The notes beneath the pieces were generated by a model. It did no database searches, was not told where the DNA came from, and saw only the letters and a program-made list of their open reading frames with translations. A stretch of DNA of 64,000 nt from Cyclobacteriaceae bacterium (GTDB lineage Bacteria; Bacteroidota; Bacteroidia; Cytophagales; Cyclobacteriaceae), in contig JAEUUF010000013.1 in NCBI GenBank assembly GCA_016787645.1, forward strand, positions 682,001 to 746,000. Direction: 5' to 3'. Below, in pieces: positions 22,801 through 32,396 of the stretch. Within the stretch, counting starts at the first letter, position 1. Each line of letters begins with the position of its first letter. A program made the translations under genes and the position numbers.

Positions 22801-23817
22801 CAAGGGTTGATTATTGAATACTACATTCACCAGCGACCAGGTGACACCCGCATCTTGCGAGAGGTACAGGTCTGATCCGCCACCTGATAAGTTGCCTTCT
22901 ACAGAAGCAAAAATTCGATTGGGATTGACCGGCGACACGGCGATCTCCACGCGGCCATTCGGACTCATCCCGGCATTCGAGAGTGCCCAGGTCACTCCCC
23001 CATCGATTGATTTGAGAACACCGACCTGGTATTGCGCCGCATATTGAATCAAGAAGTTGGAGGGATTCGCCTTCAGATCCTGAATACTGACATCATCGAA
23101 AACCTTCGTCCAGGAGGTGCCGCCGTTTGTGGAGCGATAAATACCAGTTTGCGTGGCTGCTACCACGATATTGGGATCCGTCGGGCTCACCACCAGGCGG
23201 TTGATATCAGAAAAAGAACTCGTAGCGCCGAGGTGTGTCCAGGTTTGTCCACGGTCATTTGATTTGAATATGCCGTTGCCGGTGATTCCATCAAGATTGC
23301 CAAATCCCTCACCAGTGCCAACATAGACAACATTGTGATTGGATGCCGCCATCGCCAACACCGTGGTGGCCATGTTGGTGAGGGTTGGTGTAATGAGGCT
23401 CCAATTGACACCGGCATTGGTCGTCTTCCACACTCCACCTCCTGCTGATCCTGCGTACCAGGTATTCTTGAGCGGATCATCCGGATCCACGATCAAACCC
23501 CGGGTTCGTCCAGGTACATTGGAAGGACCTCGTTCCGTCCAGGTAATGGTCCCGGATTGGAGTTGGGGTGGGCGATTTCTTGCCGCTGTTAACGCTTTGC
23601 GGTATTCCTTCAGCCGATAACCCGGTTGATAAGCTGGTGTAGATTCACCGGCAGCGGTGCGGATCTCTTTATGAAACCTTGCGAATTCTTCGGGACCACT
23701 GTACTGCTCGGCAACCGCCATCGCTTGCGACCGTTCTGGCTTGCGGGGTTCATGCACGCACCACAGGATAGTTGCGACAAAGAAGAAATTCAAAGTGACT
23801 AGCTGCCAGTACCGCAT
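19843..23817 (-). CDS. Large BNR/sortilin-repeat protein with T9SS type A sorting domain
   Basis: 1324 residues. An N-terminal hydrophobic segment (about 6-21) acts as the export signal. Residues from about 100 to 960 contain repeated BNR/VPS10-like units (GGGVWKTTNAGVNWSLI, GIFKSNDRGQTWTHLG, GIYRSTNGGTSWTKV, YLSQDAGVTWSLV), an Asp-box beta-propeller. The last 80 residues (FPNPVATEFTASYTV through the VLKIVVSR end) form a Por_Secre_tail type A sorting domain, which directs secretion by the type IX system. The protein should be secreted or surface-bound; glycan binding or hydrolysis is possible, but no catalytic sialidase signature was recognised. Confidence 0.92.
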   Translation of the reverse strand: MRYWQLVTLNFFFVATILWCVHEPRKPERSQAMAVAEQYSGPEEFARFHKEIRTAAGESTPAYQPGYRLKEYRKALTAARNRPPQLQSGTITWTERGPSNVPGRTRGLIVDPDDPLKNTWYAGSAGGGVWKTTNAGVNWSLITPTLTNMATTVLAMAASNHNVVYVGTGEGFGNLDGITGNGIFKSNDRGQTWTHLGATSSFSDINRLVVSPTDPNIVVAATQTGIYRSTNGGTSWTKVFDDVSIQDLKANPSNFLIQYAAQYQVGVLKSIDGGVTWALSNAGMSPNGRVEIAVSPVNPNRIFASVEGNLSGGGSDLYLSQDAGVTWSLVNVVFNNQPLNFLGNQGWYDNTIACDPFDANVVYFGGVNLFRLTLGTGTTEVANYDFQENGTSGFLYLLSFQNITYSSARLTAGPQAGQRNVELRFGPGKSQKAHRFTVPLGSTSGVPSANYTYANYVDVPFEVWEVTNPLSPRQIMVSFRDQANNGQFDLMEQFFGADPLLNSREYVFINDVDYATTPNPSIALPGGHEFRLMYSFFPALANGATWQPASLPTSTLVIKYTGLPKFNAATVTVSDAYNQYDGKNRFLAYGLDVHPDQHNLVMVPMTGSTFKIINASDGGVFVSNTSTSPGTNQGDWTMAGRSYRTSQFYGADKRPGFDQYVGGTQDNGTWMSPVTGSSTANTEYNSCFGGDGFEVIWNNLDDQHIIGGSQGNTFFRSQNGGLSWDQSTAGLFGTHPFISKLANSRDNPDRIYTLSSVGVFYSEDFGGLWRVAPITAKWGGSSALMDIEVSRANANIVWAGSGMIESAPMNLHVSTDAGVTFTPTVNPPSSLISGGITKLASHPFQEQTAYALFSQAGNPKILRTTDLGQTWEDISGFESGDVSTRGFPDVAVYCLYVRPDNPDILWAGTEIGIVESVDNGLTWSLIPDFPALSVWDMKGMDNQVVIATHGRGIWTATIDVSQETVVHPEILEWGTSPKKELVLRVRLAENFDKVEFYNGPSLVGVSNAATPGDWVVALPGVSPGPRTVKMIGYHGTAPIHSKSYSLDQLNILSIENSYATYFGDSEDFKGNGFALGSFTNSMPSERKILHSDHPYIINTNSTAILLHPVVVSATHPFLYYEDVALVEPGDNGAPFGTTGFKDYVVMEASTNGLDWIALEDGYDARAYPEWGAAYLAGAAGSRSLLRQHQVNLTNQFQVGDTLLFRYRLYADGTVTGWGAAVDYITIQEEPTGIEPTRPAVESFKAFPNPVATEFTASYTVKSPTAVMLEVIDLSGRRIHNKELMHNAPGTFEETFSMRGQPAGTYFVRLKSPSGEQVLKIVVSR

Positions 23818-23837
23818 GTGTTCCTATTTATGAGTTC

Positions 23838-24227
23838 CTATTTAGATGAGCGCAATTTGATCATTCGGACATATTGAGAAAGGCTCTCACCGCTTCTCAA
23901 CGTACCTGGCACGCTTAATAACTCGAGTGTATCCTCATTCGCCCACTTCACGTAACCCGGGAGAAAGGACTGTTGTTCCACAATAGCGCCCGTTGACTTA
24001 TCGATCACCAGGAAACGGACAGCCCGCCTGGCCGCGAGGGGATCTGTCTTTTGAACATACAGGATAAATTTTCCCGAAGCATTCGGGAAGGAGTCAAGGT
24101 CATTTCCCAATTGTTGGGTTGCCAACTTCGTCATATCCTCGCCCTGTGCCGGAGAAGTTGACTTGCAACCCAACAGGTTGCCACCCACCAGGGAAAGGCA
24201 CACGACTAACAGGAATTTGGGGAACAT
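23838..24227 (-). CDS. Lipoprotein of unknown function
   Basis: 129 residues starting at the ATG at 24227, chosen because it puts a canonical lipoprotein signal (KFLLVVCLSLVGGNLLGC, lipobox LLGC) at the N-terminus; the frame extends further upstream without such a signal. The mature part (about 110 residues) looks like a small beta-rich domain (FILYVQKTDPLAARRAVRFLVI, SLSQYVRMIKL). It ends 20 nt before the start of the large T9SS substrate gene and may be co-transcribed with it. No family recognised. Confidence 0.75.
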   Translation of the reverse strand: MFPKFLLVVCLSLVGGNLLGCKSTSPAQGEDMTKLATQQLGNDLDSFPNASGKFILYVQKTDPLAARRAVRFLVIDKSTGAIVEQQSFLPGYVKWANEDTLELLSVPGTLRSGESLSQYVRMIKLRSSK

Positions 24228-24244
24228 CAACTCTGGATAAACAC

Positions 24245-24252
24245 CAAAAGTA
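24245..24252 (-). promoter_or_regulatory. Candidate -7 box of the lipoprotein gene
   Basis: TACTTTTG on the minus strand, 17 nt upstream of the ATG at 24227. No clear -33 partner. Confidence 0.35.
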
Positions 24253-24484
24253 CTAAAAAGGCGATGGCGGCCCCGTGATGTTCCAAGCGCATTCATGTAA
24301 GAAGGTCATCCAAATTGCGTGAATTTGGCCGGAAAGAAGTCGCATTTGCCCTGGCCATGAATCCTGAACCCTTGACGGCGCACGGGCCACAATTGGGGTC
24401 ACCTCTTCGACAGTTGGCACTAAATGACGGCCTCAATCGTAACCTTATCCCCCAAAGGCAGTATTTAGGAGTAAATCCCTGCTC

Positions 24485-25024
24485 ATGAACCCAACAAAAT
24501 CCATTGCCCTTGCCGCCCTGTTTGTTTCAGGAATTTCGGCCAACGCTTTCAGCCAAACCGCTACGCCTCCTGTCCCGCCGAGGGAGCCGGTCAAGGTAGT
24601 AGTAGAGCCCATCGAGCCGGTTGAACCCGTTGAGGTGGACCTTGACCTGGAGCCGATGGAAATTGAGCTGGAGGAGATGGACCTCGCCCTGGCGGCCATT
24701 GAACCCATTGAAATTGACCTCGACATGGAGGCCTTGAACCGTGAAATCCAGGAAGCCGTGAAAGAAGCCATGGAGGAAGTAAAGGAGGCCATGGCAGAGC
24801 TGAAGGTTGAACTCCGTGAAATGGACGAGGTGGATATTGACCTCAACCTCGATGAACTGAATGACCTCAAAGAAGAACTCCGTCAATTGGATAAAGAATC
24901 GGATGAGGCGATGCTGAACGACGATCCACACAAAGGCAAGCACAAGGACAAGGCCGTTCATAAGAACAAGGAAAAGTCCAAAGACAAGGATGAGAAGGCG
25001 AAGGGGTTGAAGAAGATAAATTAG
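24485..25024 (+). CDS. Exported acidic coiled-coil protein with lysine-rich tail
   Basis: 179 residues. The signal peptide (MNPTKSIALAALFVSGISANAFSQ) ends at the SQ position common in Bacteroidota. Residues 30-75 are a Pro/Glu repeat (EPIEPVEPVEVDLDLEPMEI, then EPIEIDLDME), residues 75-145 are strongly acidic and probably coiled coil (EAVKEAMEEVKEAMAELKVELREMDEVDIDLNLDELND), and the last 30 residues turn abruptly basic (KHKDKAVHKNKEKSKDKDEK). The charge switch is striking. No known domain. It lies just upstream of the tRNA-Pro and the defence island; I see no link beyond position. Confidence 0.75.
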   Translation: MNPTKSIALAALFVSGISANAFSQTATPPVPPREPVKVVVEPIEPVEPVEVDLDLEPMEIELEEMDLALAAIEPIEIDLDMEALNREIQEAVKEAMEEVKEAMAELKVELREMDEVDIDLNLDELNDLKEELRQLDKESDEAMLNDDPHKGKHKDKAVHKNKEKSKDKDEKAKGLKKIN

Positions 25025-25111
25025 TGGAATCGCGGAGGGGCTTATCCTTCCGGAAAGATTTTCTTAATATTGCACCTCGAATTCAGGCTTTCGGGCCTGG
25101 AACGTGGATTT

Positions 25112-25186
25112 CGGGGTGTAGCGCAGCCCGGTTAGCGCATCACGTTAGGGACGTGGAGGTCGGATGTTCGAATCATCTCACCCCGA
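25112..25186 (+). tRNA. tRNA-Pro (anticodon AGG)
   Basis: A complete cloverleaf is readable. The acceptor stem CGGGGTG pairs with CACCCCG (25179-25185), the D arm is GCGC...GCGC, and the anticodon stem TCACG/CGTGG encloses the loop TTAGGGA, giving anticodon AGG at 25147-25149 followed by G37. The T arm is GGATG/TTCGAAT/CATCT. The 3' CCA is not encoded (ACA follows). Pro identity is supported by the CGGGGTG acceptor and G35-G36. A34 is unusual for a bacterial proline tRNA. A strong hairpin follows immediately. Confidence 0.9.
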
Positions 25187-25187
25187 C

Positions 25188-25238
25188 ATCGCCCGCCAAA
25201 CTCAGCTCTTTAGAGCAAGTTTCGGCGGGCGATTTTGT
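25188..25238 (+). terminator. Terminator downstream of tRNA-Pro
   Basis: Perfect 10-bp stem (ATCGCCCGCC at 25188-25197, GGCGGGCGAT at 25224-25233) with a further nested stem and a following TTTTGTT run. It begins 2 nt after the tRNA and separates it from the AT-rich island. Confidence 0.85.
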
Positions 25239-25317
25239 TACTAAACAGTACTCTTATCCTGGTTTTACTAAGTGGGTCACTTGTGGAGTTCACTCAGATG
25301 GTTTGTGGCAGGACCCG

Positions 25318-26565
25318 TCAGATCTCCAATTCAAGCTGAGGTCGGTTAATAATACTTGAGATTCTAGTTCTATTACTGGGGTACCTACCATTGACCCACA
25401 TTCCCTTCTTGATTCTAGCTTCAAACGTGGCCTTAGGAAATAAACTGTTGTAGCGTGCTCGATACTTTTCAAGGAGTTCCTTATCATCTTGGAGTGACTT
25501 CAGTCTCTTAATAATGACATCAACAGGTCCAATCTCAACTCCAATCCACTTTCTTTTTTTTATATCGGCAACCGCATAAGTCGTTCCAGAACCACCAAAG
25601 GGGTCAAAAACGACATCATTTTCATTGGTAGACATCTCAATTATTCTATCAATAAGTTTTACAGAAAGTTCATTCGCACCGGCTCTTCTCTTTATTCCCT
25701 TATGTCGAACTGGAGGGATATCATACCAAACGTCTGAAAGATTAACACCCTTAGGGTTCATCTTATCTTTATATCCACCATAATCCTTAAGGTCTCTATG
25801 ACAACTTGGGCAAACCTCCATTGGCAATCTATCAGGTTTGAAAACGTTTGCTTTGGTTCCCTTAGTGAAATATAGAAGTGAGTAGTGTGAAGGGTACAAT
25901 CTATTGGCGATTGGCAATGAATATTTGATGTCACATGCTATCCAATTCTTGAATGTCATATGTCCGCCCAGAAACTTAGCATACAGAATATTCCATTTCG
26001 GTAAATTCCAAACAAAGAGGCTTCCTCCCGGTTTCAAAATTCTCACACATTCGTTGAGCCAACTCTCGGACCATCTGATGTATTCAGTCTCTTTCAGATT
26101 GTCATCAATACCTGAAGGATAGAGTTTGTCCAAATTAAAAGGAGGATCGGCAAACACTAAATCTATTGATTCACTTTTCAATTGACTCATCATTTCTAGG
26201 CAATCTCCTCTGTACAACTGACCCTTAGAGGTACTTAATACTTTCTTGAGTTTCCGTTTTTTCTTTGTTACCGTTACACCTTTCTCGGCTGGCTTTTCAA
26301 GTCTGGCAATTTCCTGTGAGTGTTTTGACAACATATCTACAAGTTCCATATCAATTATGCCCATCTTAAGTTTAAGATCCGTTAAAGACCTCTTCGATGT
26401 CTTTAGAATTCCATCGAGAAAAGGTTCTGGAGGGAGGATATTATTTGCATTCCAATATTCCAACCGATTCGGCTCAACACCGATTTCTACTGCAAGCGCT
26501 TTTAGACCTTTTTTGTCAGAACTTGAAACATTCAAGAAATCGTAAAGTTTATTTCCCCATTCCAT
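25318..26565 (-). CDS. Site-specific DNA methyltransferase (amino-MTase, beta class) with N-terminal HTH-like region
   Basis: 415 residues from the ATG at 26565 (a TTG 6 codons upstream overlaps the -7 box). The catalytic motif IV DPPF (140-143) precedes the AdoMet motif I FDPFGGSGTT (320-329), the order of beta-class N6-adenine or N4-cytosine MTases. A Cys pair (VCPSCHRDL, about 251-259) lies in the variable target-recognition part. Residues about 17-70 (KKGLKALAVEIGVEPNRLEYW and following) resemble a helix-turn-helix, as in restriction-modification controllers. It is divergent from a BamHI-like endonuclease, so it should protect the sites that enzyme cuts; if the target is GGATCC the expected mark would be N4-methylcytosine. 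The gene is AT-rich compared with the surrounding genes. Confidence 0.92.
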   Translation of the reverse strand: MEWGNKLYDFLNVSSSDKKGLKALAVEIGVEPNRLEYWNANNILPPEPFLDGILKTSKRSLTDLKLKMGIIDMELVDMLSKHSQEIARLEKPAEKGVTVTKKKRKLKKVLSTSKGQLYRGDCLEMMSQLKSESIDLVFADPPFNLDKLYPSGIDDNLKETEYIRWSESWLNECVRILKPGGSLFVWNLPKWNILYAKFLGGHMTFKNWIACDIKYSLPIANRLYPSHYSLLYFTKGTKANVFKPDRLPMEVCPSCHRDLKDYGGYKDKMNPKGVNLSDVWYDIPPVRHKGIKRRAGANELSVKLIDRIIEMSTNENDVVFDPFGGSGTTYAVADIKKRKWIGVEIGPVDVIIKRLKSLQDDKELLEKYRARYNSLFPKATFEARIKKGMWVNGRYPSNRTRISSIINRPQLELEI

Positions 26566-26580
26566 TGTATTAGGTTTTGT

Positions 26581-26588
26581 CAAATTTA
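26581..26588 (-). promoter_or_regulatory. Candidate -7 box of the methyltransferase
   Basis: TAAATTTG on the minus strand matches TAnnTTTG and places a transcription start just upstream of the ATG at 26565. The 70-nt divergent region also contains the palindrome GTTAAC and must carry the endonuclease promoter on the other strand. Confidence 0.4.
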
Positions 26589-26635
26589 GATCGAAATTTT
26601 GGGTTAACTAAGTTCACAAAACCAAATACTTTGTT

Positions 26636-27247
26636 TTGAAGGTTACAGGCATTCATGACATTCTAAACGGCGAATTGTTCAAGACTTCAACTGACCTAAA
26701 GAAGGCAAACAGGGAGGTTCTAGATGCAATAAGGTTAACCGATTGGCCTCATGGTAGTGGGAAATTTTCGATTTATCCCGAAAGTGGCAAAAAACGTGGA
26801 ATGGGAAATGGTGTAACCCCAATCAAGAGACCATGTTTGATACAACTTAATTATTACGGGTGGATAACAGAAAGGCTACCAGATATTGGTTCAACTGTTA
26901 TGGAGACAGGTGACCTGGATGCACTGAAACGAGTTGGGGATCAATTCATTGCCTTTGAATGGGAAACTGGCAACATTTCCTCAAGCCATCGCGCAGTAAA
27001 TAAGCTGCTCCTTGCCATGCAAGAGACAAACACTTTGGGTAGTTTCCTTGTAGTGCCAAGTAATAAATTCAAGAAATTTCTCACCGACCGTATAGGAAAC
27101 ATAGGTGAATTGAAGCCCTATTTCCCCTTATGGAAAAATATCCCAAGCATATCCGGCGCCTTACGAATTATTGAAGTAGAACACGATGAGGAAAGCACTG
27201 ATGTTCCCAGAATCCCCAAAGGGACTGATGGAAGAGCACTTTTTTAA
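26636..27247 (+). CDS. BamHI-like type II restriction endonuclease
   Basis: 203 residues from a TTG start at 26636; no ATG exists between the upstream in-frame stop at 26609 and the conserved core. The protein aligns along its length with BamHI (213 aa) as I recall its sequence. Shared blocks are NGVTPIK (58-64), FEWETGNISSSHRAVNKLL (107-125; BamHI FETGNISSAHRSMNKLL), LTDRIGNIGELKPYF (149-163) and PRIPKGTDG (191-199). Glu108 and Glu110 match catalytic Glu111 and Glu113 of BamHI, and Glu79 matches Glu77. The counterpart of Asp94 is unclear because this region is about 5 residues shorter (Asp93 or Asp95 are candidates). It is encoded divergently from the methyltransferase and overlaps the AIPR gene tail-to-tail. 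Recognition of GGATCC is possible, not shown. Confidence 0.93.
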   Translation: MKVTGIHDILNGELFKTSTDLKKANREVLDAIRLTDWPHGSGKFSIYPESGKKRGMGNGVTPIKRPCLIQLNYYGWITERLPDIGSTVMETGDLDALKRVGDQFIAFEWETGNISSSHRAVNKLLLAMQETNTLGSFLVVPSNKFKKFLTDRIGNIGELKPYFPLWKNIPSISGALRIIEVEHDEESTDVPRIPKGTDGRALF

Positions 27248-28938
27248 GTCTCGTCCGGAAAAAGTACATTGCTTAATCCCAAGCTTACATCTATACTCTC
27301 GCTGAGCTTCCTAACATTCTTGGGAGTCTTGAAAAATGAATAAGGGGATCTGAATCCTTTATTGCTTCTTGTTACCTCTTTTGTGGAATTAAATACCTTT
27401 TCACAAACTGGCAAAATTGTCTTTGGTGTTAGATGTAGGTTATGCATTGAGAGCCTCTTATAACCAAAATATTTGAAGACTTTGTGGAGTATTAGTCTTT
27501 TGGCAAAGATTGCTAATGCTGGATTTTCGCCATCGCCAGTGTCCACTTCCTTTTCTTTGAGAAAATCTCTCGTTAATCGATATATCCTAACACAATTCCA
27601 CAATCTGTCACCTGAAGTTTTGTCATTAAAGATTCTTGTGTAAGGCTGCCTTTCAATGTCCTCCCAAATTTTTCCAATCTCGCGGCTTACCAAGATAGCG
27701 AGATCTATGTCGTAATGGGCGCATCCAAGGGCAATTGTCGCCTCTTCAAGAGTGCAGCCGGCTTCCTCATGAGGCTTTTGTTCTCCCGTCTTGAACGAGT
27801 ATTCAATTCCATCTAGAAACAACTCCTGTTTAAGTCTAGTTTGATTGCTGTCAAGAGAGGCAAAATCCTTGTTCTCAATTTTATTTTGGGTGTTATTAAA
27901 CTTAGTAATCTTCGACGCGTAATCATCTGGTGCTCCCTTTAGATCAATGAATCTTACATGGACCTTAGCATCCTTTATCTGATCTCTGTATTGTAAATAG
28001 GTTTCACCAATAGCTCCATAAGTCTGGGCTCCATTTACAATATTTACATCCTTAAAACTAAAAACCCCTGCCTCCCGATCCTTTTTCGGTCCCTTTCCAA
28101 AACTCTTACACAGAATTGTGATACCGTTATTGAAATACCAGAAGTCCCGTGGTTCCTTCATTAGTGTAAGCTTTATGTAGGCATTTACAGTTGTATCACC
28201 CTTGAACCTTCTTAGGTTTTTTGTTAGAAGATTATTCTTATATGTTTTCCAAAGTTCACCTAAGTCGACGACACTCATTTCACCATAAATACTTTCATAG
28301 GGCTCAGAATGCTTACCCCAATTGGTTAGCGTGATGTCCGTGAGATCAATCGGTGCACCGTCGGTGGCACTAATGATGCACTGATAAAGGTCCTTTAGAT
28401 TTATCACTCTTGCAGTGTAGATTTCAAAACCATCATTCAATAAGGCTAGTTTGTCCCTAATCAGATCCTTTGATTCATTACCAAGTGGTTGTACACCAGA
28501 ATAGATAAGCAAGAGCTGGATTCGGTATGAGGCGCTTTCAACTGCCTTTATTACATTATCTCTCTTAGATTTTACTTTGTCATTGAACTTGTTGAACCGA
28601 CAACTTACAAGGTCTTCCACACCGTTGAAGAATGCCGTTATCTCGGACTTTTTCGGTGATCCTTGGCCGTTCTTAATCCACTTCCCTTGGGCCAACGTAA
28701 GGAGTTTTGAATCCTCGTCAAGCAGAATAGCATCGATTCCATTGTCTTTGAATCCGTCAGTGATTGCATGCACTGCTGTTTCAGAATCTACTTCGCATGT
28801 GGAAGCAATAGCAAGACATATTTGCCCAGCACTTATCAATTGGTCAATACTAGTTAAGTCAGGATGAGTCACCCTAATTTTAGGTAAGTACCGCTCAGTA
28901 ATTACTTTCTCAATTCGCTTTAGAGTAATTGAGGACAT
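27244..28938 (-). CDS. AIPR-family abortive-infection phage resistance protein
   Basis: 564 residues. The AIPR domain signature is clear: FWYFNNGIT (266-274) and VNIVNGAQTYGAIG (298-311). The N-terminal region contains a PD-(D/E)XK-like pattern: GIDAILLDE (Asp69), strand LLTLAQGKW with Gln84-x-Lys86, suggesting a nuclease fold as in other AIPR proteins. Members are linked to abortive infection and often sit near restriction-modification genes. Its stop overlaps the endonuclease stop by 4 nt on the opposite strand, so the two genes are physically locked together. It has its own upstream -7 box. Low GC like the rest of the island. Confidence 0.88.
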   Translation of the reverse strand: MSSITLKRIEKVITERYLPKIRVTHPDLTSIDQLISAGQICLAIASTCEVDSETAVHAITDGFKDNGIDAILLDEDSKLLTLAQGKWIKNGQGSPKKSEITAFFNGVEDLVSCRFNKFNDKVKSKRDNVIKAVESASYRIQLLLIYSGVQPLGNESKDLIRDKLALLNDGFEIYTARVINLKDLYQCIISATDGAPIDLTDITLTNWGKHSEPYESIYGEMSVVDLGELWKTYKNNLLTKNLRRFKGDTTVNAYIKLTLMKEPRDFWYFNNGITILCKSFGKGPKKDREAGVFSFKDVNIVNGAQTYGAIGETYLQYRDQIKDAKVHVRFIDLKGAPDDYASKITKFNNTQNKIENKDFASLDSNQTRLKQELFLDGIEYSFKTGEQKPHEEAGCTLEEATIALGCAHYDIDLAILVSREIGKIWEDIERQPYTRIFNDKTSGDRLWNCVRIYRLTRDFLKEKEVDTGDGENPALAIFAKRLILHKVFKYFGYKRLSMHNLHLTPKTILPVCEKVFNSTKEVTRSNKGFRSPYSFFKTPKNVRKLSESIDVSLGLSNVLFPDET

Positions 28939-29014
28939 TTTTATTCTAGCTGGTTAAGTTGACTTAGATATTCTGATTTCCGGGACTTAATTGACATATA
29001 AATTATTAATTGGG

Positions 29015-29022
29015 CAAAAGTA
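29015..29022 (-). promoter_or_regulatory. Candidate -7 box of the AIPR gene
   Basis: TACTTTTG on the minus strand, about 76 nt upstream of the ATG at 28938. The 268-nt interval to the next gene is AT-rich near this box and then returns to host-like composition around 29050-29200; I see no coding sequence or integrase remnant in it. Confidence 0.4.
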
Positions 29023-29206
29023 AATATAGACATTTGATTGAGTGCTGAAAGTTACAAAGGGTGCTTGTGCTCTTACTTCTGACTTCAGGGACTTCCCCCG
29101 TACACAAACTCCTGATATTGGACCAAAGGTGGGTCAGCAGCATTTTGGCATTCACCTATGAGATCCAAGTAGGAACTTAGATTCACTTGAGAGCGCTTAA
29201 TTCCGG

Positions 29207-30100
29207 CTAAACCACCCTCACCACCACATTCCCCCTCTTGTGAAATCCCTCCACATAGGTATGCGCTTCACGGATCTGTTCCAGGGTGTAAACTTTGTCA
29301 ATCACAGATTTCAGCTTTCCAGATTCAATAAGCTCCTTCAACTGAAGCAAGTCATCGGGCTTTGATTTCGGAGAACCGGTTACCGTTATGTACTTACCGG
29401 CGGGTTTCAGCAGAGGCTTGCAGGCCGATTTAGATGTTTTCCCCACGGCATCAAAGACGACGTCGAACAGGCGCCCTGTCTTTGTGAAATCATCCCGGGT
29501 ATAATCAATCACGGTATCCGCACCGAGTGAAGTGACCAGGTCTGCATTTTTCGAACTGCAAACAGCCGTAACCTTGGCACCCATTGCCTTGGCGATCTGA
29601 ACCGCAAAAGTCCCCACACTTCCCGATGCTCCATAAATCAGAATCTGATCTCCTTGCTTTAAGCCGGAAGACCTCAAGAACCGCAAAGCGGTCAGGCCAC
29701 CGACGGGAACCGCGGCTGCCTCCTCGAAAGACATGTTCGAAGGCTTGCCAGCGACCTGTTCATTGGCCGGCAGACACTTATACTCCGCATAGCCACCGAA
29801 CCCGAACCCGCAAAAAGCAAAAACAGGATCACCTTCCTTGAAGGAAGTAACCTCCTTGCCAATAGCTTCCACGACTCCGGCGACTTCAAACCCCAGTATC
29901 TTGACCCGCGAAGGTTTGAACAGTCCATTGAAAATTCTCGCGAGAAACGGATCGGCTTTTCTTAAGCGCCAGTCACCCGCCGTCACCGTGGTCGCATGGA
30001 CCTTTATCAACACCTCATTGCTTTTGGGTGTTGGCTTCGGAATATCCCGAAGTTCAAGAACCTCCGGTGATCCATAGCGTTCATAGATAACTGCCTTCAT
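29207..30100 (-). CDS. Zinc-independent MDR alcohol dehydrogenase / quinone oxidoreductase-like protein
   Basis: 297 residues from the ATG at 30100, chosen because it gives the conserved N-terminus [17 protein letters not shown]; a longer ATG start at 30133 would overlap the upstream gene. Medium-chain dehydrogenase fold with the NADPH-binding [20 protein letters not shown] motif and the [11 protein letters not shown] segment of quinone oxidoreductases. The structural-zinc Cys cluster is absent, consistent with NADPH:quinone or enone reductases. Starts 14 nt downstream of the CPBP protease gene in the same orientation. Substrate unknown. Confidence 0.9.
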
Positions 30101-30114
30101 AATATTTCTACTAG

Positions 30115-30933
30115 TCAGTGATTGCCTTTCCATTTGCCCACGGCCACCGCAAGCACTACAACCCCCGCCAGTCCCAACGCACTCCCCTCCAATCCAAAGT
30201 TACCACCGGTCAGCCATAGGGGAGCATCCCCAAACACCGGCAGCAACAAACTGGGTTGTACATGACCGCTTACTCCAAAGCCCAGCAGCACGCCTTGCAC
30301 CCAGTTGGCTGCAGTGTGCATGGCGATCGCCATCACCAGGTTGTTTGTGCGGATCACCGTCAGGCCAAAAAGGATGGAAGCAAGAAAAATATTCGCCATC
30401 GCCAGTATTTTGACAGTCCCGTGCATTTCAGGGTTGGCCATGTGCGTCAGTAAAAAGTAGGCCGAAATAATGACTTGTGCCGGCCATGTGCCCAGGCTCC
30501 CGCGGAGTCGCCCGAAAATAAATCCCCGGAACAGAAACTCCTCGGAAACAGCACCGGCCACCATAGTTCCCGTGATTGCCCATAGTGAGTAGGCATCCGC
30601 GGATTGACCTTCCCAACGCACCCAACCCCCGACATATAATACCAGTGATGGAGCCAGCATGAGCGCAGCTCCCAGTGCCAACCCTGCAAAAAGATTCCGG
30701 ACAAAACTTAAATCCAGTCTCCCGGTCAAGTCGGCGAACGAACCGCCCCAGAGGCGCTGGCAAATCCAGGTGGCAGCCAGCACAATGATAGCCTGCTGGT
30801 ATATCGACACCTCTGCGTTATTGCTCCGGGATAGAAAGATCGCAGGCAAAGTCAATGCTGCCAGCACCAGGAAGAAGATGGCCACCCACCAGGCTTCCCT
30901 GATTTTTCCCAGCTGATTCAGGAAGATCTTCAT
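30115..30933 (-). CDS. CPBP family intramembrane glutamic endopeptidase
   Basis: 272 residues, about eight transmembrane helices. The Abi/CAAX-protease motifs are present: [14 protein letters not shown] (EExxxR motif), a His in [11 protein letters not shown], and [11 protein letters not shown] (HxxxN motif). Such proteins are membrane-embedded proteases used in CAAX-like processing, bacteriocin immunity or stress signalling. It is part of a reverse-strand run from the AraC gene at 34633; spacing to the upstream fusion gene is 50 nt. Confidence 0.9.
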
Positions 30934-30983
30934 GGTATTAGTCGTCCAGCGTGTGTACGAAATTCCATTTCAATTTCCCGAAG

Positions 30984-32396
30984 CTAATGAGTTCTGTTGA
31001 AGGGCTTAAAGACATATACGCTGATGCTCAGCATGCGGTTATACCGCTGAACCTCATTCGACAAGCTAGTCAAACCATGGCCATACCGAATGTCAATTGC
31101 CAGTTTCTTGTTCTTATTCTTCTTCTTCCAATCAAATACGTACCCCACGCCAGCCTGCACACCCATCTCAAAGCGTCGGAATCCGCCGGGTTGACTGCCG
31201 AAAGAAACGGAGCCACCATCCGGCCCGTCGGATTCTGTTTTGCCCGAAAACAGGTAGGAAACATACGGTCCTGAATTCACATAGAAGCGCCCAAAGTGGA
31301 ACCGGGCCAGCAACGGCATTTCGGCCGAGTACAATTTTAGGGTGGTTTTACCCAGCGTCAGGGCATTGCCCGCATTGAGCGTTCCGCCCTTCATGGCATA
31401 GTAAACCTCACCGACCAACGAAAAACGATCGGTGATACCGGCCTGAACAGACACCCCGGCCCGGAGACCGCGCAACGATTTATTGAATGAACCCAACTGT
31501 CCATTCATGTCCCCGTAATTTAGATTGACACCTGTTGTGTTCACCACCAGTGTGACATAACTGGTCTGCGCATTGGATCCGATTGATGCAGCCAGAACGA
31601 TAAAGATTGCAAGGATGGACTTGCCAACTACGGCACGACCAACTTCCTTCTGACCCTGGACTGAGGGGTTATCTTGATTTACATTTTCATCGATCACCGC
31701 AAAGCCTTTGGCAATTAACCAGCCAGCGAGGATCATTTCATAAAGTGCAACGGGAAGCGCCATCAGTATGGCACCAGTTGAAAACAACGGTACAAGATCA
31801 AACATGGCCAATGTACCCGAGGCAAGAATCAGCACGGCTCCCACCAGGCCCATCGCGGCCAGGCTGCGTGGCACCAGCCTGGTGCGATAGAAAACATAAC
31901 TGTAAATGCTGGTATTGATGCCCAGCACGAAGCACGGACCCAGTATAAACGTCCAGTCATGGATGGCCTTAAGCGCTATCCCAACGGCACGATAAGATTC
32001 TCCTTGCGCTTCGCCACCCGCAACAAAACTCTCACTGATCGTCACTAGAGCCAGCATGCTGATCATCCCGATTAAAATGAGGAGACCTTCCGTCAATCGA
32101 AACACCAGGTAGCCAAGTGCAAAGCGCCCATCGAATTTGCGGAGGTAAGGAAAGAGCATAATGGCGGTTGCGGCCATTGATACAAAGAGCATCAATTCAA
32201 GAATTCCACCCAATATGATTTGTGACCGGTTGGCCGCACCCGAAAGCAGGAAATCGCCGGTGATGAGAATTGGGTCATACAGCTTCATCCCGATAATGGC
32301 CGTTACGGTAGCCAGGATGAAAAACGCGCCGGTCAGTTTTCCATTCATCCGATCTTTTCCTGCAGCAGGGTGCCGTTTAGTGATTACGTGTTCCAT
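30984..32396 (-). CDS. DUF4386 membrane domain fused to an outer-membrane beta-barrel
   Basis: 470 residues with two unrelated halves. Residues about 17-232 form a seven-helix inner-membrane domain of the DUF4386 type (LYDPILITGDFLLSGAANRSQI start, AIHDWTFILGP, VALYEMILAGWLIAKGF end). After a polar linker (233-252) a second, signal-peptide-like stretch appears at about 254-277 (GKSILAIFIVLAASIGSNAQ), followed by a PorT-like eight-strand barrel (LRAGVSVQAGITDRFSLVGEVYYAMKGG and on). Such a topology should not work as one polypeptide unless cleaved; no start codon (ATG, GTG or TTG) lies in this frame at the junction. Read as an in-frame fusion, deletion scar or assembly error. Confidence 0.75.
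   Translation of the reverse strand: MEHVITKRHPAAGKDRMNGKLTGAFFILATVTAIIGMKLYDPILITGDFLLSGAANRSQIILGGILELMLFVSMAATAIMLFPYLRKFDGRFALGYLVFRLTEGLLILIGMISMLALVTISESFVAGGEAQGESYRAVGIALKAIHDWTFILGPCFVLGINTSIYSYVFYRTRLVPRSLAAMGLVGAVLILASGTLAMFDLVPLFSTGAILMALPVALYEMILAGWLIAKGFAVIDENVNQDNPSVQGQKEVGRAVVGKSILAIFIVLAASIGSNAQTSYVTLVVNTTGVNLNYGDMNGQLGSFNKSLRGLRAGVSVQAGITDRFSLVGEVYYAMKGGTLNAGNALTLGKTTLKLYSAEMPLLARFHFGRFYVNSGPYVSYLFSGKTESDGPDGGSVSFGSQPGGFRRFEMGVQAGVGYVFDWKKKNKNKKLAIDIRYGHGLTSLSNEVQRYNRMLSISVYVFKPFNRTH

Follow-up and report, generated by a model that had tools for sequence, protein, structure and literature searches.

Gene content and composition of the locus

The contig JAEUUF010000013.1 of a Cyclobacteriaceae bacterium (phylum Bacteroidota, assembly GCA_016787645.1) contains, within the 64,000-nucleotide stretch analysed here (positions 682,001 to 746,000 of the forward strand, called the window, with coordinates counted from its first letter), a foreign, AT-rich block that holds a compact BamHI-type restriction-modification (R-M) system and a gene of the AIPR family. 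The block consists of a methyltransferase gene (M), an endonuclease gene (R) and the AIPR gene, all of which an earlier note, made from the letters of this DNA, had recognised; they were found where it had placed them, and profile searches confirmed their families (Table 1). The GC content over 25318-28938 is 0.396, compared to a mean of 0.512 (standard deviation 0.027) for 3.6-kb segments across the 64 kb, and the lowest values of the whole window fall on this block, in agreement with the AT-richness that the note had pointed out. The individual genes M, R and AIPR are similarly low (0.386, 0.422 and 0.398).

The block is bounded by a tRNA-Pro gene and by a gene at 29207 that, judged by eye, resembles a zinc-type oxidoreductase. 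M and R are divergent, and AIPR faces R on the opposite strand, so that the R-M genes and AIPR share no common operon. R and AIPR lie tail to tail, and their stop codons overlap by 4 nt at 27244-27247, an overlap already noticed in the earlier note and read directly in the sequence. All three reading frames are intact, and their conserved motifs are present.

Table 1. Positions of the genes and features of the block and its left border.
Feature	Position	Strand	Basis or remark
tRNA-Pro (AGG)	25112..25187	+	ARAGORN; left edge of the island, possible integration landmark
Terminator-like inverted repeat	25188..25233	+	Repeat search; 22-nt arms, 77% complementary, 2-nt loop
M, M.BamHI-type DNA methyltransferase	25318..26583	-	PF01555, PADLOC MTase_II, alignments
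14-nt inverted repeat, candidate operator	26567..26629	no strand	By eye, then shuffle test
R, BamHI/OkrAI-type restriction endonuclease	26636..27247	+	PF02923, OkrAI and BamHI matches, homologue alignment
AIPR/AbiU-family protein, 564 aa	27244..28938	-	PF10592, PADLOC AbiU
AIPR core, residues 238-377	27808..28227	-	Best PF10592 stretch
AIPR codons 61-86 (D61, D65, D69, Q84, K86), predicted Mrr-type PD-(D/E)XK motif	28681..28758	-	

The endonuclease and the methyltransferase

R matches the BamHI family PF02923 with an E-value of 1.2e-41 (142.5 bits, gathering score 22.8). Among solved structures, it aligns with OkrAI over residues 26-202 (E 1.2e-45) and with BamHI over residues 16-200 (E 5.1e-21), which bears out the BamHI-like protein of the earlier note. 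Its start codon is TTG, a choice backed by the aligned homologues. Nine residues of BamHI are identical in R, namely E77, D94, E111 and E113, which we take to be catalytic, and N116, S118, R122, D154 and R155, which we take to contact the bases; seven of the nine are also invariant across the alignment of R homologues. Because all of these residues are kept, the recognition site of R is most probably GGATCC. This sequence occurs 19 times in the window, where 16.7 are expected, and is therefore not depleted, though with methylation no depletion would be required.

M belongs to PF01555 (E 1.6e-43) and matches the PADLOC profile MTase_II (PDLC03238, E 5.4e-135). The order of its motifs, with DPPF before FGGSGT as the earlier note had seen, together with its N6_N4_Mtase domain, places it in the beta class. 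The homologue alignment favours an ATG at 26565 as its start, inside the frame that begins at 26583.

The AIPR protein

The AIPR protein matches PF10592 with an E-value of 4.9e-36 (125.4 bits, gathering score 25) and the PADLOC AbiU profile with an E-value of 3.7e-27. Its closest relatives among the matches found share 34-42% identity with it across the part that matches, and comparison with solved structures by sequence gave no meaningful match. In the N-terminal region, D61, D65, D69 and Q84 are invariant in all 26 aligned AIPR proteins, 23 of which also have K86. The succession D...QxK is the pattern of Mrr-type PD-(D/E)XK nucleases. In a Pfam search of the 26 N-termini at a cut-off of E 5, the families with the highest numbers of matching members were Mrr_cat_2 (4/26, best E 0.005) and Mrr_cat (3/26, best E 8.4e-5). 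The protein is thus probably a nuclease of the Mrr type whose AIPR core is regulatory and, given this resemblance, probably a second, DNA-cutting layer.

The genome of the window contains a second, distant AIPR-like open reading frame (ORF) on another contig (G000:C22:1858-2298; L002, L129). AIPR genes are also found on small plasmids, such as a 5.6-kb Citrobacter plasmid (L012), where the AIPR gene and the end of the replication gene overlap, and plasmids of similar size from Klebsiella and Salmonella are among the AIPR matches.

Recurrence of the three-gene block

When genome contigs were searched with the R alignment, 158 relatives came up, and the 80 best of them entered the comparison. 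Together with 3 plasmid loci, 6 from viral contigs and 6 found in the orders to which L097 and L072 belong, they make up the 95 BamHI-like loci compared here with the window; a fourth plasmid match (in a Geobacillus plasmid, as is the match H2) and L202, in which the BamHI-like ORF is unconfirmed, were left out. R has no match among phage records. Of the 395 genomes sampled from the phylum, its own alone contains R, and R is present in 3 of 225 and 7 of 348 genomes in these two orders.

At least 2 of these 95 loci have an AIPR gene no more than about 2.4 kb from the R-M genes, a lower bound because many of the loci end at contig ends. In Bacillus sp. FJAT-50079 (L072), AIPR is located 59 bp from M, on the flank opposite to that in the window. 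In Clostridium hydrogenum (L097), the order is M, R, a Mutator-family transposase (PF00872) and AIPR, with the order and orientations of the window. Chance would roughly give 0.03 such loci (P about 0.0003), if AIPR occurs everywhere at the rate seen in one order, where 218 genomes had 16 matches, with a mean genome of 3.3 Mb estimated by eye and the clustering of defence genes ignored. Among ten further genomes searched for AIPR, besides those of L072 and L097, a single AIPR was found (L022), on a contig separate from its R-M genes. The trio is, then, recurrent but uncommon, occurring in three genomes of two phyla, the window included. The earlier note had suggested a database check for the triplet and held that its confinement to this genome would speak against a functional pair; AIPR stands beside the R-M genes in two other genomes.

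In a tree of R (81 rows), the window groups with the Chromatiaceae loci L020-L022 (support 100/99), far from L072 and L097. In a tree of AIPR proteins (36 rows, the copy from the window among them), L072 and L097 are sisters (100/100), and the protein of the window stands apart. Taken together, the two trees suggest, as their simplest reading, that the BamHI-AIPR pairing was gained at least twice.

Variable partners of BamHI-type systems

The loci L019-L022, whose R is 67% identical to that of the window, contain M, a controller (C) gene, R and then a second methyltransferase; in the window, which lacks the C gene, AIPR occupies the position of this methyltransferase in the same orientation. 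L026 (69% identity over 157 residues) has a short R ORF only, and M was not found in its locus. A second methyltransferase behind R is present in L019-L022, L044, L053, L057, L065-L067, L069, L073, L077, L078, L087 and L094; those of L021, L044 and L031 match PF01555 and UPF0020, with an SPPY-type motif recognised by eye. Other partners are a pair of SIR2-like and ParA-like genes, which faces R in L092 (6660-8568) and L197 (7641-9517) and stands beside M in L021 and L022 (2413-4307 in both), a Lamassu LmuB/LmuA pair, which lies tail to tail with R in Geosporobacter (L063:6614-9454) and stands where the window has AIPR, and, in L196, a GmrSD-type gene that follows R.

On the AIPR side, 63 loci were examined, of which 43 are viral contigs, several near-identical and many with short flanks. 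A methyltransferase matched by a profile lies within 6 kb in 8 of them, comprising type I (L014, L121), Dam-like (L016), BamHI-like (L072, L097, both of which entered the set through the BamHI searches) and Dcm-like (L129, L165) enzymes and one weak match (L180), and none in the other 55; of these, 11 show a loose xPP[YFW] motif and nothing more, and 44 lack this as well. A link of BamHI-type systems to AIPR thus looks modular, with interchangeable partners. An obligate pair was rejected as the leading view on evidence from both sides, since 93 of the 95 other BamHI-like loci, many of them cut by contig ends, lack AIPR in the available DNA and most AIPR loci have no such methyltransferase.

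The survey also gave observations on the islands themselves. The SIR2-like and ParA-like genes overlap or adjoin each other in a gammaproteobacterial genus as well as in Bacillota and form a recurrent candidate defence module. L059 (2056-3341) has a tandem pair of BamHI-like endonuclease genes preceding a single methyltransferase, and the enterobacterial loci L058, L062 and L064 have a short R-similar stretch between C and R. Two islands of Bacillota adjoin, by eye, an rlmH-like gene (L072:1655-2134 and L092:8751-9230); rlmH is an insertion landmark in staphylococci.

Controller gene and regulation

A C gene lies between M and R in 34 of the 41 divergent BamHI-like loci, the window being one of the 41. 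The seven divergent loci that lack it are the window, L041, L063, L072, L092, L097 and L196; the contig of L041 ends just past M, so that one flank is absent from view. AIPR is present in 3 of these 7 loci and in none of the 34 with C (Fisher 0.0033, kinship uncorrected). The endonucleases of L063, L072, L092 and L097 cluster in the R tree (89/48; L196 is outside that tree) and are therefore not independent, which makes the association only a lead. When second defence modules of any of four kinds (AIPR, Lamassu, SIR2 with ParA, GmrSD) are counted, the contrast is 6/7 vs 3/34 (Fisher 1.2e-4) and is biased, because the query set was drawn largely from C-less loci.

The neighbours of C-bearing loci were scanned with PADLOC (E 1e-10) at 33 loci, where 149 ORFs of 150 aa or more lay no farther than 3 kb away. 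This set excluded L138 (R identical to that of L137) and ORFs with a length not divisible by three; the figures cover 25 of the 84 matched families. Among the matches listed, the type II methyltransferase is the commonest of defence type (up to 15 of the 149 ORFs), followed by mad2 (13), ThsA-like (3, presumably the SIR2 genes counted already), PDC-S25 (3), LmuA (2) and Dsr2 (2), with ShosA, PDC-S42, MTase_I and RtcR/CARF-like once each. In the separate locus survey, a second methyltransferase was present in 15 C-bearing divergent loci. As C-bearing loci also have defence neighbours, the C-less contrast is again only a lead. It is quite improbable that BamHI-type systems which lost C have come to depend on the adjoining module (AIPR, Lamassu, SIR2 with ParA or GmrSD) as an interchangeable alarm for restriction failure, one that ends in death or arrest of the cell.

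The gap between M and R in the window contains a 14-nt inverted repeat (arms 26567-26580 and 26616-26629, 13/14 paired), which is a possible operator. It was first spotted by eye, and an equally good pair arose in 1 of 2000 mononucleotide shuffles. The corresponding gaps of the C-less loci L041, L063, L072, L092 and L097 gave no repeat of 13/14, and L097 has one with 11/12 positions paired. The N-terminal ~100 residues of M, helix-turn-helix-like by eye, are common to other divergent BamHI-like systems. A precedent for a methyltransferase as regulator is M.SsoII, whose N-terminal region regulates transcription according to the available part of PMC3978073. That this domain of M replaces the missing C protein is not supported, since the alignments show a similar N-terminal domain in C-bearing systems.

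The tRNA-Pro gene and the question of insertion

The earlier note described the block as inserted behind tRNA-Pro and its terminator. The position directly behind the tRNA gene and the terminator-like repeat were both found, although a terminator scan made no call at this 22-nt inverted repeat. A repeat search of 24900-29400 gave nothing att-like, the 3' end of tRNA-Pro has a single copy within the 64-kb window, and no integrase was noticed by eye among the listed ORFs of 23000-31500; the marks of a tRNA-integrated mobile island, an integrase and a duplicated tRNA 3' end, were thus not found.

Of 40 genomes of the genus, 39 have a match to this tRNA-Pro, counting that of the window. Twelve tRNA-Pro stretches from other genomes of the genus were compared, one of which (L240) stops just past the tRNA; ARAGORN, applied to six of the twelve, called tRNA-Pro AGG in all six. 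Three of the twelve stretches have a Pfam-confirmed recombinase directly 3' of the tRNA, which is a phage-type tyrosine recombinase in L235 (5937-7262) and L237 (8959-10278) and a serine recombinase in L241 (5809-7368), and L242 has a probable further serine recombinase, recognised by eye. In some members of the window's genus, the tRNA-Pro (AGG) gene is accordingly used for recombination. Of the three confirmed cases, only L237 has the upstream neighbour gene of the window, which means that the same tRNA gene, though not always the same locus, serves integration. Insertion of the block behind tRNA-Pro is an inference, with these recombinases in relatives in its favour.

A proposed island of two defence layers

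The gene identities, the conserved catalytic residues, the foreign composition, the recurrence of the trio and the variable partners are together the basis for reading the block, with moderate confidence, as a horizontally acquired mini defence island of two independent layers, in which AIPR is not a subunit of the R-M system. The first layer would be a type IIP system of the BamHI/OkrAI family, with M as the methylating enzyme and R cleaving DNA that lacks the methylation, most probably at GGATCC. In the second, the AIPR/AbiU protein, probably an Mrr-type nuclease, would attack phage or cell DNA once infection is sensed, possibly with an abortive outcome. The two would adjoin because genes for defence are transferred in blocks, and because interchangeable second defence genes settle at the flanks of BamHI-type systems. 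The two-layer defence of the earlier note is retained in that the compact foreign R-M/AIPR block exists and the pairing recurs in two genomes; a dedicated two-layer machine is not supported, as 55 of 63 AIPR loci lack a profile-matched methyltransferase within 6 kb, the genes face each other and other loci have different partners.

Several observations weigh against this reading. The same order M-R-AIPR in two phyla could exceed what free assortment would give. No C gene was matched in 26400-26700 in any of the six frames at E 1. The AIPR of the window is a long branch in its tree, and the tree program warns of an adjoining long branch. As for the nuclease, K86 is absent from three distant AIPR members, and the N-terminus of the window's own protein matches no Pfam family at E 5, so that the assignment comes from a minority of its relatives and the motif. 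The available part of PMC3506569 gives AIPR an N-terminal HEPN RNase domain instead, and PMC3710099, the main text of which does not contain the word AIPR, ascribes HEPN to AbiU2.

The order shared by the window and L097 and the presence of the trio in three genomes of two phyla also speak for a coupled two-stage system, in which AIPR would be a back-up that is set off when restriction fails, through a phage anti-restriction protein, a GGATCC-modified phage or the loss of methylation. The absence of C from all three AIPR-bearing loci fits it as well, with the limits given above, and PARIS, which senses an anti-restriction protein according to the available text of PMC9122126, is a precedent. 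Such coupling is nevertheless unlikely, as R and AIPR are on opposite strands and have no common operon, the AIPR of L072 is on the other flank, and most AIPR loci have no profile-matched methyltransferase nearby. Moreover, the C-less Bacillota loci L063, L092 and L196 have Lamassu, SIR2 with ParA and GmrSD, respectively, and no AIPR was found in the genomes of L063, L092 and L041 (L196 being outside the search).

Still less likely are chance neighbours in a defence hotspot, that is, an R-M system and an AIPR gene that reached tRNA-Pro separately and never interacted. Recombinases do use this tRNA in some relatives, and clustering of AIPR with R-M genes is described for defence islands in the parts of PMC2292703 and PMC3506569 available; however, the evenly low GC of the three genes, the 4-nt stop overlap and the order shared with L097 argue for one transferred block. 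A degenerate island with at least one non-functional gene, which the lack of a detected att repeat or integrase and the undepleted GGATCC sites might suggest, is very improbable in view of three intact frames with conserved motifs.

The three-gene block allows cooperation of AIPR with restriction genes, as against mere clustering beside them, to be tested directly. The loci also provide a natural comparison set, in which the same type of R-M system is accompanied by AIPR, Lamassu, SIR2 with ParA, GmrSD or a second methyltransferase, or has no such partner.

Comparison with known systems

The earlier note knew of no described system that pairs a BamHI-type enzyme with AIPR in one compact unit. 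A pairing of AIPR with R-M genes in general is described, since the association of AIPR with R-M genes is stated in the available parts of PMC2292703 and PMC3506569, and a figure legend of PMC5608340 shows an AIPR gene in a Prevotella type II operon (Pin25611FIII); like these published operons, the window has AIPR beside R-M genes. The accessible portions of PMC5379612 and PMC9523054 place AIPR together with type I genes and with an MZA-like system, respectively. AIPR beside R-M genes and in defence neighbourhoods is thus known already. A BamHI-type enzyme paired with AIPR was not found among the titles and passages of the literature searched, which lay outside most subscription journals, and the three papers containing both terms are, by title, on other subjects.

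The AIPR protein shares a weak common core with MzaE of the MZA system (NCBIfam MzaE, 41.5 bits), far under the cutoff of 1050 bits, and the island has three genes only, the other two being M and R; membership in MZA was rejected on these grounds, with no profile search made for other mza genes. PrrC guards EcoprrI, and with it and with PARIS, an abortive layer guarding restriction in the available part of PMC9122126, the likeness is one of concept. With AbiU/AIPR proteins, the window shares an AIPR core above the Pfam cutoff and the PADLOC AbiU match, and it differs in its distance from the best relatives found; the assignment is by sequence. Finally, compared to the OkrAI and BamHI systems, the window differs in having no C gene between M and R, and its endonuclease is homologous to theirs over nearly the full length, with the catalytic and base-contacting residues kept.

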